Positions 3,258-25,716 of a DNA stretch of 27,029 nucleotides are shown here, in pieces. The notes under the pieces were generated by a model. That model was not told the DNA's origin. It did no database searches and saw only the letters and a list, made by a program, of their open reading frames with translations. The stretch lies in the IMG/VR virus record IMGVR_UViG_3300027833_000186, positions 1-27,029 of that record, one strand, 5' to 3'. Made by a program: the position numbers and the translations under genes. Origin of the DNA: a virus. Numbering within the stretch: the first letter of the stretch is position 1; each line of letters opens with the position of its first letter.

Positions 3258-3943
3258 TATTTATGTCCGAATAGTTTGCGTCTTCTATATTCGGCAATAG
3301 TTTCTATTAACTTTTTAGACCAGTTGTCACGATGTTCAATAAAGACTTGAGCACCCTCATCACCGGCAATTAAAGTAACTAATTGCGTAATTGGCATCCC
3401 TGTCCGTTCTTCCCACATAATAGCATATGCAGTTTCTTGTATGAAGTAACCTTCACACCAGTCTTTTTTCTTAGTCTTAGCTGAAGTCTTATAATCAATA
3501 ATAGAATTTTTACCATCAAAGACTCCAACGCAATCTACTCTACCAGCAACACCTAGATGTTCTGAGTATAAAGCAGCCTCTTGGGCATAGACCTTGGTTA
3601 GTCGACTATCTAAGATTTCTTTTACTTCCATAAAGTTAGACTTTACAATAAGATTAGCATCTTTAAAATAGTCTTCTTCATTATCTACATATCTTTCTAA
3701 TACAGAATGTACTGCTGTACCACGAGTAGAAGCCCTGCGGCCGATTTTATTAGCTTCTTCGGCTCCTACTCTTGCTCTCCATTCCCTGATGTGATCTTCA
3801 CTTAGTATAGAAAGTACTGTAGTAATAGAAGGATACTTAATCCCATTAGGAGCAGCGTATTTTCGCCCAGCATCAGTAGTCTTTGCGACCAAATCTTTGT
3901 AGCCAAGATCAATTGGTTCATGTTCGAAGTTTCCTTTATTCAT
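3257..3943 (-). CDS. PD-(D/E)XK-family exonuclease
   Basis: A protein of 228 residues from the ATG at 3943. That start was chosen because it overlaps the preceding TGA as ATGA; an ATG five codons upstream (3958) is the alternative. RecB/Cas4-like nuclease signatures are visible: R-G-T-A-V-H-S-V-L-E around residues 74-83 (the motif with His and Glu), G-R-V-D at about 134-137 (first catalytic Asp), I-I-D-Y-K-T-S at about 148-154 (D-x-K core) and the following Q-E-T-A-Y-A helix. The N-terminal G-R-K-Y...Y-P-S-I-T-T-V-L-S is typical of the version in T4-like cyanophages. Such enzymes degrade DNA ends and act in recombination or host DNA breakdown. Four-cysteine Fe-S ligands as in Cas4 are not present. 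Confidence 0.85.
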   Translation of the reverse strand: MNKGNFEHEPIDLGYKDLVAKTTDAGRKYAAPNGIKYPSITTVLSILSEDHIREWRARVGAEEANKIGRRASTRGTAVHSVLERYVDNEEDYFKDANLIVKSNFMEVKEILDSRLTKVYAQEAALYSEHLGVAGRVDCVGVFDGKNSIIDYKTSAKTKKKDWCEGYFIQETAYAIMWEERTGMPITQLVTLIAGDEGAQVFIEHRDNWSKKLIETIAEYRRRKLFGHK

Positions 3944-4245
3944 ACTTGTTTGCGCCATGGACGTCTAGAGCCATCTTGAGGCCTGCCCGTTTGAGCCATT
4001 TCTGACTTATAGCCATTAATGGTAAAATTTAGTTTATAGGGATCAATACCAGAAGTATTTTCGATAGCTCGATGAACTGCAGCTAATTCCAAATCGCGCT
4101 CAGGCTTATTGGACTTTAGCTTCTCTTTATGTACTATGCCATATAGTTCATAGAGTTTAAAGTGCGATAAAGGTTTAATTAGATTTCGAGCTTCTGCATC
4201 GTAATCTCGTGATTCATTTTTATCTTCATGTCGCCATCTACTCAT
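3940..4245 (-). CDS. Small basic protein upstream of exonuclease
   Basis: A protein of 101 residues, highly charged at both ends (MSRWRHEDKNESRDYD..., ...DGSRRPWRKQV), with a central helical part (HFKLYELYGIVHKEKLKS and a helix L-E-L-A-A-V-H-R-A-I-E-N). I do not recognise a family. It is the first gene after the early promoter at 4282-4310, its stop overlaps the exonuclease start, and it has an AAAGGAAC ribosome site within the 51-bp repeat leader. Coupling suggests it may work with the nuclease, which is inference. Confidence 0.7.
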   Translation of the reverse strand: MSRWRHEDKNESRDYDAEARNLIKPLSHFKLYELYGIVHKEKLKSNKPERDLELAAVHRAIENTSGIDPYKLNFTINGYKSEMAQTGRPQDGSRRPWRKQV

Positions 4246-4346
4246 AATGTAGTTCCTTTCTTTATCATTTAATATAGGTATATTATATCATAGTTTTGGG
4301 ATTGTGTAAACATTTATTTTACTATTTCTTAGATCATTTAGTTATA
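4242..4346 (-). repeat. Promoter cassette copy 1 (shares ends with 24947-25061)
   Basis: Positions 4242-4292 are identical over 51 bases to 24947-24997, and 4329-4346 are identical over 18 bases to 25044-25061. The middle (4293-4328, 36 bases) differs between copies and holds the spacer and -35 box. The left repeat includes the start codon, ribosome site and -10 box. The right repeat lies just past the stop of phoH here and on the stop of thyX in the other copy. Confidence 0.85.
4282..4310 (-). promoter_or_regulatory. Sigma70-type (early) promoter for the exonuclease-FmdB operon
   Basis: The minus-strand -35 TTTACA (4310-4305) and -10 TATAAT (4287-4282) are separated by 17 bp, with the extended -10 TGA in front. 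The downstream part lies within the 51-bp leader that is repeated exactly at 24947-24997. Confidence 0.85.
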
Positions 4347-4349
4347 AGC

Positions 4350-5036
4350 TTAATCTAATTCCCCTCGTTCAATCATTTCTTTAGTCATAATGAAATCCCT
4401 TACAAAGCCAGATCTTACAATGTCTTCCCACTTGAATTCAATATGATCAAATGCACGCATATTTTTAATGATATTGATGAAATAACTAATACCATTTTGA
4501 TCACCCTTACGAGTAAAGTCTGATTGATAGTAATCACCAGCCATTATAAATCTACAATCTTCGCCGAGTCTTGTTATAACTGAGCAAAGTTCGTGATAGG
4601 TACAGTTTTGAGATTCATCAATAATAACAATTGCATTTTTAAGAGTAATACCACGAATAAACGATGTTGTGAGAAACTCAACGCTGTTAGTAGCAATTAC
4701 TTTACCCCAAGCTTCTTGATCTTCGAATAGATCATTAACAATTGCTTTATATGGAGCTGTGTAAGCGTCTTCTTTTTCTTCTTGAGTTCCAGGAAGAAAT
4801 CCCATGTCTCTTGTGGGAACTGCAGAACGTACAATAATAACCTTTTCATATTCTTTATTAAACACAGCTTCTAATGCGAGATATAGAGATATGAAAGTCT
4901 TACCAGTACCAGCTGAACCATCTAAGCATAGATGATTACCACTAGCAAAAGATTCGAATGCTAGTTTTTGATTCTGAGTTAATGGATCAAGCTTTACTAA
5001 ATGCTCTAGTTTTAAACGTAATGGTTTTTTATTCAT
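4350..5036 (-). CDS. phoH: PhoH-like P-loop ATPase
   Basis: A protein of 228 residues matching the phage PhoH-like family. Walker A is G-S-A-G-T-G-K-T at 40-47, Walker B is A-I-V-I-I-D-E-S-Q-N ending near 144, V-R-S-A-V-P-T-R-D-M-G-F-L-P-G-T follows Walker A, and M-A-G-D-Y-Y-Q supplies the sensor-like segment. PhoH is common in marine phages. Bacterial PhoH is a cytoplasmic ATPase linked to phosphate starvation and to RNA metabolism, and its role in phages is unresolved. It is the last gene of the operon starting near 5856-5884, and its ATG overlaps the preceding TGA. Confidence 0.93.
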   Translation of the reverse strand: MNKKPLRLKLEHLVKLDPLTQNQKLAFESFASGNHLCLDGSAGTGKTFISLYLALEAVFNKEYEKVIIVRSAVPTRDMGFLPGTQEEKEDAYTAPYKAIVNDLFEDQEAWGKVIATNSVEFLTTSFIRGITLKNAIVIIDESQNCTYHELCSVITRLGEDCRFIMAGDYYQSDFTRKGDQNGISYFINIIKNMRAFDHIEFKWEDIVRSGFVRDFIMTKEMIERGELD

Positions 5037-5855: not shown

Positions 5856-5884
5856 ATTATATCATACTTCTTAGCAAATGTAAA
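5856..5884 (-). promoter_or_regulatory. Sigma70-type (early) promoter for the phoH operon
   Basis: The minus-strand -35 TTTACA (5884-5879) and -10 TATAAT (5861-5856) have a 17-bp spacer and an extended -10 TGA. The leader shares 26 bases with the other cassettes. The -35 box directly abuts the stem of the terminator hairpin at 5885-5924. Confidence 0.87.
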
Positions 5885-5924
5885 CCCCTCAGTGAAACTA
5901 ATTTTACATTTTTTCACTGAGGGG
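5885..5924 (-). terminator. 13-bp stem-loop, likely terminator, abutting the -35 box
   Basis: Arms 5885-5897 and 5912-5924 (CCCCTCAGTGAAA / TTTCACTGAGGGG) pair perfectly over 13 bp around a 14-base loop. It starts 5 bases past the stop of the gene at 5930. The T-rich tract after the stem on the minus strand is short (GGGG then TTTACATTTG) and is also the -35 box of the next promoter. A strong GC-rich stem foot makes termination or RNA-end protection likely. Confidence 0.75.
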
Positions 5925-24557: not shown

Positions 24558-24950
24558 TTAAATTCCTGTCCAACGAATTGACTCTGACTGGTAACTATCA
24601 AATATGTTACCTCTAGCAAAGTTAGTAGCCGGCTTGCTCCATCCAGCTGCCATTAGCATATCGCCAACTTTAAATGGTTCGTTTGTTTTGTTATCGATTG
24701 CTTTAGGAGCTTTTTTAACAATGAAACCAACGACTGAAGATCTAAGATCTCCATCATATTGACTTTCTTCTGTCTTAACAAGCTTGATAAAATTACGACC
24801 TTCTTCGAAGATGTAGTTAATTCCTTCCATTCTTTCATCAGCATAATCTTCTGGATTGTCTCCAGCGTATTCGCTTTTAGCGTAGAAGTCTCGAAGGTTG
24901 TTTTGCATGAGAGCTAGAAGGTTGTTTGTTTCAGTAATTAAGTCTTTCAT
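24558..24950 (-). CDS. Conserved T4-like marine phage protein (AGDNPEDYADERMEGINYIFEEGR type)
   Basis: A protein of 130 residues. A helical N-terminus (L-L-A-L-M-Q-N-N-L-R-D-F-Y-A-K-S) is followed by the conserved-looking A-G-D-N-P-E-D-Y, G-I-N-Y-I-F-E-E-G-R-N-F-I-K and later V-G-F-I-V, F-K-V-G-D-M-L-M-A-A-G-W-S-K-P-A, A-R-G-N-I-F-D. I recognise this as a recurrent hypothetical of T4-like cyanophages and relatives. The N-terminal M-K-D-L-I-T-E is similar to, but not a clear match for, the targeting motif. It is the first gene behind the promoter cassette at 24947-25061. Confidence 0.78.
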   Translation of the reverse strand: MKDLITETNNLLALMQNNLRDFYAKSEYAGDNPEDYADERMEGINYIFEEGRNFIKLVKTEESQYDGDLRSSVVGFIVKKAPKAIDNKTNEPFKVGDMLMAAGWSKPATNFARGNIFDSYQSESIRWTGI

Positions 24951-24986
24951 AATGTAGTTCCTTTCTTTATCATTTAATATAGGTAT

Positions 24987-25015
24987 ATTATATCATAAAG
25001 AAAGGAGTTTGTAAA
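24987..25015 (-). promoter_or_regulatory. Sigma70-type (early) promoter
   Basis: The minus-strand TTTACA (25015-25010) and TATAAT (24992-24987) have a 17-bp spacer and an extended -10 TGA. It drives the gene at 24950 and the small genes behind it. A stem-loop lies 7 bases upstream of the -35. Confidence 0.86.
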
Positions 25016-25022
25016 CTGTTTT

Positions 25023-25039
25023 AGTGAAATTAATTCACT
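25023..25039. other. 6-bp stem-loop beside the promoter; T run follows on the plus strand
   Basis: Arms AGTGAA (25023-25028) and TTCACT (25034-25039) enclose a 5-base loop. The T run (25039-25045) follows the stem on the plus strand, so as a factor-independent terminator it would suit rightward transcription. For leftward thyX transcripts it is only a weak stem. The same AGTGAA/TTCACT core forms part of the larger hairpin at 5885-5924. Confidence 0.5.
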
Positions 25040-25056
25040 TTTTTTAGATCATTTAG

Positions 25057-25716
25057 TTATATGACATCGTCGAGAGGGAATATTTGGTATATAGCTTCTG
25101 CACATGCTTTAGCGATCTCTTGATGTTCTTTCTGAGTACCATTTGATGCTCGAAGCTGAATATAGTGAATCCAAGATCTTAATGTACCATTGACATACAT
25201 ACGAGACATTGTTAAACCTTCAGGAAGAATTGCTCTTGCCTGCTCTTTTGCGATACCAGCACTAATAGCCCATTCATAGGCATGCTTACAACGTTCAATA
25301 ATGACCTCTTGATATGATTCCCATATATGATGAATAGAATCTTCCATAGGAATATCAACAGAGTTTTGACGATTCTTATCGTCTTGTAGTCGTGCTTCAC
25401 GAGTTACAAAACTTAGATCTTGAGTTGGATCAGCGTATCGTTGACTAAACTCTTGAAACGAGAAAGATCGATGTCTAAGGATTTGTCGAGCAATATCCCT
25501 AGTAGTATCTACCTCCATACAAACACTAACCATCTCTAATGGAGACCAATGTTGATGTTTAATTAAGTAATTAACTAACTTTTCAGCGCTCGCTTCATTA
25601 TTTTGGTTACTTGGGTTTGACACACGAGCACAGTATGCGACCATTTGTAACAAATCGTCTTTTAATTCGACTCCAATAGCTGGTTTACTATGAGAAATTA
25701 CGCGAACATTAAACAT
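25057..25716 (-). CDS. thyX: Flavin-dependent thymidylate synthase ThyX
   Basis: A protein of 219 residues, the usual ThyX length. The signature RHRX7S is R-H-R-S-F-S-F-Q-E-F-S at 81-91, followed by Q-R-Y-A. The C-terminal R-S-W-I-H-Y-I-Q-L-R segment, which holds the substrate-binding Arg residues, is present too. ThyX makes dTMP from dUMP using methylene-tetrahydrofolate, NADPH and FAD. It replaces the T4 Td (ThyA-type) enzyme and is the form usual in marine T4-like phages. Together with NrdAB it supplies dNTPs. It follows the small membrane protein with a 3-base gap. Confidence 0.95.
   Translation of the reverse strand: MFNVRVISHSKPAIGVELKDDLLQMVAYCARVSNPSNQNNEASAEKLVNYLIKHQHWSPLEMVSVCMEVDTTRDIARQILRHRSFSFQEFSQRYADPTQDLSFVTREARLQDDKNRQNSVDIPMEDSIHHIWESYQEVIIERCKHAYEWAISAGIAKEQARAILPEGLTMSRMYVNGTLRSWIHYIQLRASNGTQKEHQEIAKACAEAIYQIFPLDDVI

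Follow-up and report, generated by a model that had tools for sequence, protein, structure and literature searches.

A dyad-symmetric candidate operator at whole-turn distances upstream of early promoters in marine T4-like phages

The window, an entire 27-kb viral record with T4-type genes for a gp41-like helicase, an RNase H-like exonuclease, PhoH, ThyX and ribonucleotide reductase, contains two copies of a repeat, each of which is probably an early promoter of the sigma70 type from a marine T4-like phage, modular in build, equipped with an upstream operator for a phase-dependent activator and made of parts that are separately gained and lost. The pattern suggests that, in T4-like phages of the ocean, a subset of the early genes is under the control of a putative regulatory protein not previously described. 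The evidence for this reading comes from the architecture of the two copies, the recurrence of the operator in IMG/VR and the helical phasing of the gap between operator and promoter.

Architecture of the two copies

The two copies share 51 identical base pairs at one end (4242–4292 and 24947–24997) and 18 identical base pairs, TTAGATCATTTAGTTATA, at the other (4329–4346 and 25044–25061), enclosing middles of 36 bp (4293–4328, copy 1) and 46 bp (24998–25043, copy 2). These figures, first given in an earlier note on the window, are exact, and a 51-bp exact repeat within 27 kb far exceeds chance. Both ends recur together in many IMG/VR contigs, and the search for paired ends in related phages that the note had proposed finds them before many unrelated genes. 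Both copies lie on the minus strand, the last element of each being the start codon of a small, unrelated gene, and read in the same order: operator, linker, TTTACA, 17 bp, TATAAT preceded by TGA, leader, Shine-Dalgarno, start codon. The middle, described earlier as variable, does differ in its bases, but it is not random filler, since it contains an A-rich linker whose length is quantised, together with the -35 hexamer and the greater part of the 17-bp promoter spacer.

In copy 1, the operator half-site TATAACTAAATGATCTAA occupies 4329–4346 on the minus strand (PWM score 32.3) and lacks the left half GTTATA. It is joined to the -35 hexamer TTTACA (4305–4310; 11/12 consensus matches) by an A-rich linker of 18 bp (4311–4328), which sets the predicted dyad centre at about -73.5, and a 17-bp spacer (4288–4304) leads to the TGA-extended -10 hexamer TATAAT (4282–4287). 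The 51-bp shared end comprises the end of the spacer, the -10 hexamer, the leader, the Shine-Dalgarno AAAGGA (4254–4259), the start codon (4243–4245) and one further base. The downstream gene (3940–4245, minus strand; 101 aa) has no PHROG match and belongs to no known family, and in relatives it also abuts phoH without any promoter. Upstream, on the same strand, lies the gene for a PhoH-like protein (phrog_170; 4350–5036), whose stop codon (4350–4352) falls 3 bp outside the 18-bp element.

Copy 2 carries the same half-site TATAACTAAATGATCTAA at 25044–25061 (minus strand; PWM score 24.0), and its linker of 28 bp (25016–25043) exceeds that of copy 1 by exactly one helical turn and holds an AT-rich inverted repeat, AGTGAATTAATTTCACT (25023–25039). 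The -35 hexamer TTTACA (25010–25015), the 17-bp spacer (24993–25009) and the TGA-extended -10 hexamer TATAAT (24987–24992) follow, and the shared end (24947–24997), which begins within the spacer, again includes the -10 hexamer, leader, Shine-Dalgarno (24959–24964) and start codon (24948–24950). The flanking genes are unrelated to those of copy 1, as the earlier note had stated: the downstream gene (24558–24950, minus strand; 130 aa) belongs to phrog_5014, which has no assigned function, and the upstream gene encodes the flavin-dependent thymidylate synthase ThyX (phrog_85; 25057–25716, minus strand). The overlap of the 18-bp end with the thyX stop codon (25057–25059), also claimed there, is real. 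The 18-bp element is absent from the other promoters of the window, whose -35 hexamers lie at 1736, 5884, 7832, 12074 and 23303.

The operator dyad and its recurrence

The 18-bp end is one half of a conserved palindrome, GTTATA-WSSW-TATAACWAAATGATMTAA, which forms a 28-bp dyad with a weak outer symmetry (TTA-K-ATC / GAT-M-TAA). GTTATA stands four bases before TATAAC in about half of all copies, the four bases being mostly WSSW; the left half-site is missing from the other half, including both window copies, which retain the promoter-proximal half. With GTTATA as the sole anchor, the left-anchored promoters yield TATAACWAAATGATCTAAAAAA, the right half being unforced. The dyad arms exhibit no covariation beyond composition, which argues against an RNA helix and is expected of DNA half-sites.

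Within IMG/VR, the 18-mer occurs in 70 stretches and a 33-bp piece of the leader in 32, many stretches containing both side by side. A looser operator pattern, TATAAC[AT]AA[AT]..AT.TAA, has at least 218 distinct instances there, of which at least 151 are accompanied by a promoter at a quantised distance, at no fewer than 120 loci and before at least 50 unrelated downstream gene families. The operator is missing from most of the early promoters of these genomes. Its presence is all-or-none in four contigs, with PWM scores either of 23 to 37 or below 14; one match in contig G001 (score 13.2, gap 60) proved to be the end of thyX rather than an operator. Mean identity is 91% among operators and 58% among linkers of the 18-bp gap class (linker minimum 11%).

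Read on its sense strand, the operator offers a stop codon in each of the three frames, and about one copy in three does contain the end of the upstream gene, the frame differing between copies. Where the upstream frame is clear, these stops lie at +2 (n=22), +10 (n=9), +15 (n=2) and +6 (n=1). The distance from operator to upstream stop varies from -44 to +15, and the operator is thus coupled to the promoter rather than to the gene end; the thyX stop inside copy 2 reflects a compact genome that lets an operator double as a gene end.

A cellular source of the operator was considered and discarded. Cellular genomes totalling 257 Gb contain 10 exact matches to the 18-mer, all of them lacking such a promoter; two of the matches, orthologous intergenic sites in Bermanella, are judged to be chance. 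DNA searches of annotated phages return weak matches only. Similar dyads or half-sites are present in Pseudoalteromonas phages H105/1 and C7 and Aeromonas phage Ah1 (L448 1490–1525, L449 1500–1530, L452 1500–1530), and neighbouring genes carry no regulator domain. The element is described nowhere in the literature searched, subscription literature lying outside that search.

Helical phasing of the operator–promoter gap

The gap between the operator end and the -35 hexamer is confined to discrete values: among the matches listed, it measures 7 or 8 bp (n=29), 17 to 19 bp (n=79), 28 or 29 bp (n=41) and 38 bp (n=2). Where a 17-bp-spaced promoter follows within 40 bp, the operator copy is in phase in 144 of 144 cases, again among the matches listed; the naive binomial p of 1e-77 is only indicative, because the sequences are related and many sites were collected by the operator pattern. 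The family-level count of at least 50 families, themselves drawn from in-phase copies, is the safer figure. Shuffled downstream DNA gives a 17-bp-spaced promoter call in 2.6% of trials. The phasing is also visible when the -35 hexamer is ignored, with the first TATAAT after the operator lying at 30/31, 40/41, 51/52 or 61 bp in 129 of the 138 copies among the matches listed. Loci fetched independently of the operator, with 181 promoters, contain 32 TATAACWAA sites within 120 bp of a promoter, every one of them at 16, 36, 45 or 46 bp, and the in-phase counts there are 20/20 and 12/12.

Within gene families, the gap takes the values 7/8, 17/18, 28/29 and 38 bp, so that orthologous promoters differ by whole turns; one family, for example, has gaps of 28 (eleven copies), 18 (nine), 8 (two), 17 (one) and 7 (one). 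The observed step is nearer to 10.0–10.3 bp than to 10.5 bp. With the start site deduced from the -10 hexamer, the predicted dyad centres fall at -63.5, -73.5, -83.5 and -93.5. The -35 hexamers at operator promoters differ (TTTACA, TGTACA, TTGACA). Related contigs have their own preferred -35, namely TTTACA in G005, TTGACA in G009 and TGTACA in G001, the remaining promoter being conserved (L465, L464, L468).

Whole-turn spacing of this kind is characteristic of a protein that contacts RNA polymerase while bound to DNA, and on the sequence evidence that protein is most likely an activator of the class I type. Neither termination nor recombination predicts phasing. The 8, 18, 28 and 38 bp gaps in orthologous promoters constitute an evolutionary record of a helical-phase constraint.

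Relation to known promoters and the putative activator

Both copies display the features of T4-type early promoters: a GTTTAC-like -35, a TGn-extended -10, TATAAT and 17-bp spacing. T4 early promoters are described as UP/-35/TGn/-10 (PMC2988021), and the description of the promoter logo of five T4-like phages names only an A-rich stretch upstream (PMC1524935). The present promoters share with the T4 class the -35 GTTTACA, TGn, TATAAT and A-rich DNA upstream of the -35, and differ from it by a dyad operator at -54 to -92, which those descriptions of the T4 early consensus do not contain. T4 middle promoters offer a second comparison, as there too a phage-specific element is added to sigma70 promoters for a subset of genes. 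In middle promoters a MotA box with its centre at -30 takes the place of the -35 (PMC2988021), whereas here the full -35 is kept (TTTACA, with no TGCTT box at that position) and the added element lies much further upstream.

A close parallel is class I activation by CRP, which follows a periodicity of about 10.5 bp and is active from sites at -61.5, -71.5 and -82.5, with no activity at -66.5 or -76.5 (PMC6301791). Like CRP sites at lac and similar promoters, the operator is an upstream dyad found at several distances one turn apart (PMC6301791), placed upstream of an intact -35 at whole-turn positions, with the full dyad in half of copies. It differs from CRP sites in its sequence, in serving strong phage early promoters and in overlapping the preceding gene; the predicted dyad centres are also about 2 bp off the CRP optimum.

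In the proposed mechanism, a sequence-specific protein of phage or host would bind the 28-bp site and contact RNA polymerase, probably through the alpha C-terminal domain, on the same helix face. A subset of early promoters would be activated through this contact, in the manner of class I activators. A repressor acting over such a distance upstream is less likely.

The origin of this protein divides into two proposals. A phage-encoded activator other than MotA, binding the dyad at whole turns and defining a second prereplicative class in marine T4-like phages, is put forward tentatively. A study of one marine T4-like phage reports identifiable middle promoters to be missing from such phages and gives undetected divergent sequences as one suggested explanation (PMC9004378). 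The highly conserved, phased operator that a subset of early promoters carries offers a concrete candidate for a missing layer of control, and provides a ready bait with which to fish out its protein. Among the small proteins of the 61-kb relative G005, a DsbA-like protein (L461:4975–5235, phrog_639) is a weak candidate for the factor; it is not singled out, as DsbA also occurs in G001 and G002, both of which are without the operator pattern.

The second proposal, that the phages have borrowed a host regulon and the dyad is the operator of a conserved bacterial activator of the host, is somewhat doubtful. Since early promoters are active ahead of any synthesis of phage proteins, a host factor would already be on hand, and the Pseudoalteromonas siphophages H105/1 and C7, in which similar dyads occur, are unrelated phages. 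Against this, the strict dyad is found in 0 of 369 gammaproteobacterial genomes, a sample that may leave out the right genomes; the 10 exact cellular 18-mers are promoterless, and in C7 the dyad overlaps the promoter rather than lying upstream of it. The Zur and ArcA boxes were considered and set aside: the half-sites of the Zur box are, as generally described, spaced by 1 bp rather than 4, and the ArcA box is generally given as direct repeats, in contrast to the dyad here.

Assembly of the parts at gene junctions

The earlier note had interpreted the repeat as a mobile PeSL, a cassette of T4-like phages reportedly described in Arbiol 2010 and Comeau 2014. A PeSL is a promoter–terminator composite, and in this interpretation recombination between the conserved ends would carry the whole of it from place to place in one piece. 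The comparison of loci with and without the cassette, which the note had advised, bears directly on this. At the junction between phoH and the small gene, related contigs, all of them fragments, present several states: a stop/start overlap TAATG (L281–L285), a minimal promoter right after the stop (L323–L325, L329), a promoter preceded by a short segment (L292, L326–L333), a promoter with half operator (L272, L273, L275, L276, L278) and a promoter with full dyad (L286–L288). Another, unrelated gene is inserted in L274 and L277, and the small gene is absent from L289 onwards. At the thyX junction, the operator is present with a gap of 28 in L347, and a promoter without operator in L349, L352 and L354. 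In L350 and L351, the position of the promoter cassette immediately after thyX is taken by tRNA-like genes.

Empty sites are thus found, and a single unit with fixed boundaries is not; no target-site duplication occurs at the phoH and thyX junctions compared. No terminal inverted repeats of the kind that delimit an insertion sequence or MITE bound the repeat unit. As for the supposed pair of insertion boundaries, the ends turn out to be functional elements, namely the operator half-site on one side and the promoter core, leader and ribosome site on the other. The note would have abandoned the cassette had the identities been confined to such elements and empty sites been lacking; the former is the case, yet empty sites exist.

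One identical leader precedes four unrelated gene families, which shows that promoter–leader DNA is copied between loci and is compatible with, though not proof of, recombination between cassettes. Copies 1 and 2 probably share their leader through duplication or recombination between promoters. The PeSL reading draws on this leader, on the many unrelated downstream genes, on the empty sites at phoH and on the unrelated gene inserted there, and the likeness extends to an early promoter placed in shuffled intergenic junctions between small genes, where genes are inserted and lost. A copied unit with paired, recurring ends therefore stands. Neither copy, however, has a stem followed by a T-run on the sense strand that could terminate the upstream transcript, and without a sense-strand terminator the two window copies are not PeSLs. 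Moreover, junctions with a promoter but no operator, or with a minimal promoter only, point to separate gain and loss, again unlike PeSL cassettes as generally described, and the PeSL reading leaves the helical quantisation of the inner gap unexplained. Movement as a unit is accordingly unlikely. The junction sequences show instead that operator, promoter and leader are gained and lost separately and assembled stepwise between gene ends, and their independent turnover at one junction shows how phage promoters are put together.

Elsewhere in the window, a long inverted repeat, CCCCTCAGTGAAA...TTTCACTGAGGGG (5885–5924, minus strand), lies directly upstream of the early promoter with its -35 at 5884, and this arrangement looks more like a PeSL than the two repeat copies do.

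Bending, inheritance and RNA-level explanations

A host protein that bends DNA or organises the nucleoid, IHF for instance, could produce phasing by delivering upstream DNA to RNA polymerase, since the action of bending proteins depends on helical phase. Of the 9 fixed positions of the IHF consensus WATCAANNNNTTR, 7 or 8 are matched by the reverse half-site (A/T/G)ATCATTTAGTTA. The dyad with its strongly conserved GTTATA-N4-TATAAC core is, however, unlike IHF sites, the C of ATCA is altered in about a quarter of copies, and conservation over 18–28 bp is far above that of typical IHF sites, all of which weighs against a bending site, an improbable reading.

The constant distances might instead be inherited from one ancestor, with the 10-bp steps arising as functionless duplications. 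The contigs do belong to related T4-like phages, and the 18- and 28-bp linkers share AGTGAA. Inheritance is nevertheless very hard to sustain: the step is kept across linkers as divergent as the identities above indicate, shifts among 8, 18, 28 and 38 bp recur within several gene families, the -35 hexamers vary, and no out-of-phase indels were found.

Least probable of all is a signal at the RNA level, a hairpin at the upstream gene's 3′ end that would govern termination, processing or stability. In its favour, RNA of a full dyad can fold (-13.6 kcal/mol in one instance) and the element often overlaps a stop codon. Against it, half of the copies, among them the two in the window, are without the left arm, the sense strand shows no U-tract after the element, the position is fixed to the promoter rather than the stop codon, and the reading was rejected on the arms' failure to covary.

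A ribosome-site-masking stem in copy 2

The earlier note had also placed a stem-loop in the second copy, and a strong one is indeed predicted in copy 2 only. Its left arm TCCTTTCTTTAT (24995–25006, minus strand) lies inside the promoter spacer and is present only in read-through RNA, while its right arm ATAAAGAAAGGA (24959–24970, minus strand) contains the Shine-Dalgarno; the arms form 12 base pairs and enclose the -10 box in their loop. The read-through strand has a predicted fold of -24.8 kcal/mol (z -5.4), and the leader of the local transcript is unstructured at 0 kcal/mol. No comparable stem exists in copy 1 (z -0.1). Read-through RNA of copy 2 would hide the Shine-Dalgarno in the stem, silencing translation, and RNA from the local promoter would carry the right arm only and hence be translatable.

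This resembles the T4 genes e, soc, 49 and I-TevI, in which long transcripts mask the Shine-Dalgarno and transcripts from local late promoters are without the left arm (PMC3014915). Copy 2, alone of the two, has a predicted stem that is present in read-through RNA and missing from local-promoter RNA, a likeness to the T4 leaders that stands at the level of prediction. The T4 genes use late promoters, whereas copy 2 has a sigma70 promoter of the early kind and takes the left arm from the -35/-10 spacer of that promoter. Spacer–leader pairing at or beyond the 1% null level is found in 29 of 453 promoters, mainly in two gene families. In the MYNNSSLP family (L133, L166, L223, L078, L193 and others), the arms differ and remain complementary (GATGTGCT/AGCACATC, TGCCCC/GGGGCA, GCTCC/GGAGC, CTCCTT/AAGGAG), a covariation signal for masking of the ribosome site in read-through RNA.

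Proteins with a common N-terminal peptide

A further observation concerns the minus strand between 14074 and 23240 of the window, where about nine consecutive, otherwise unrelated proteins begin with a common N-terminal peptide (MKTFKEIREA / MYGFKEYITEA / MEIKSFSDYLTEA / MKGFKTQLAEA), which is also visible as a repeat in the DNA. This peptide resembles the capsid-targeting sequence of T4 internal head proteins, and by this analogy the proteins may be injected.
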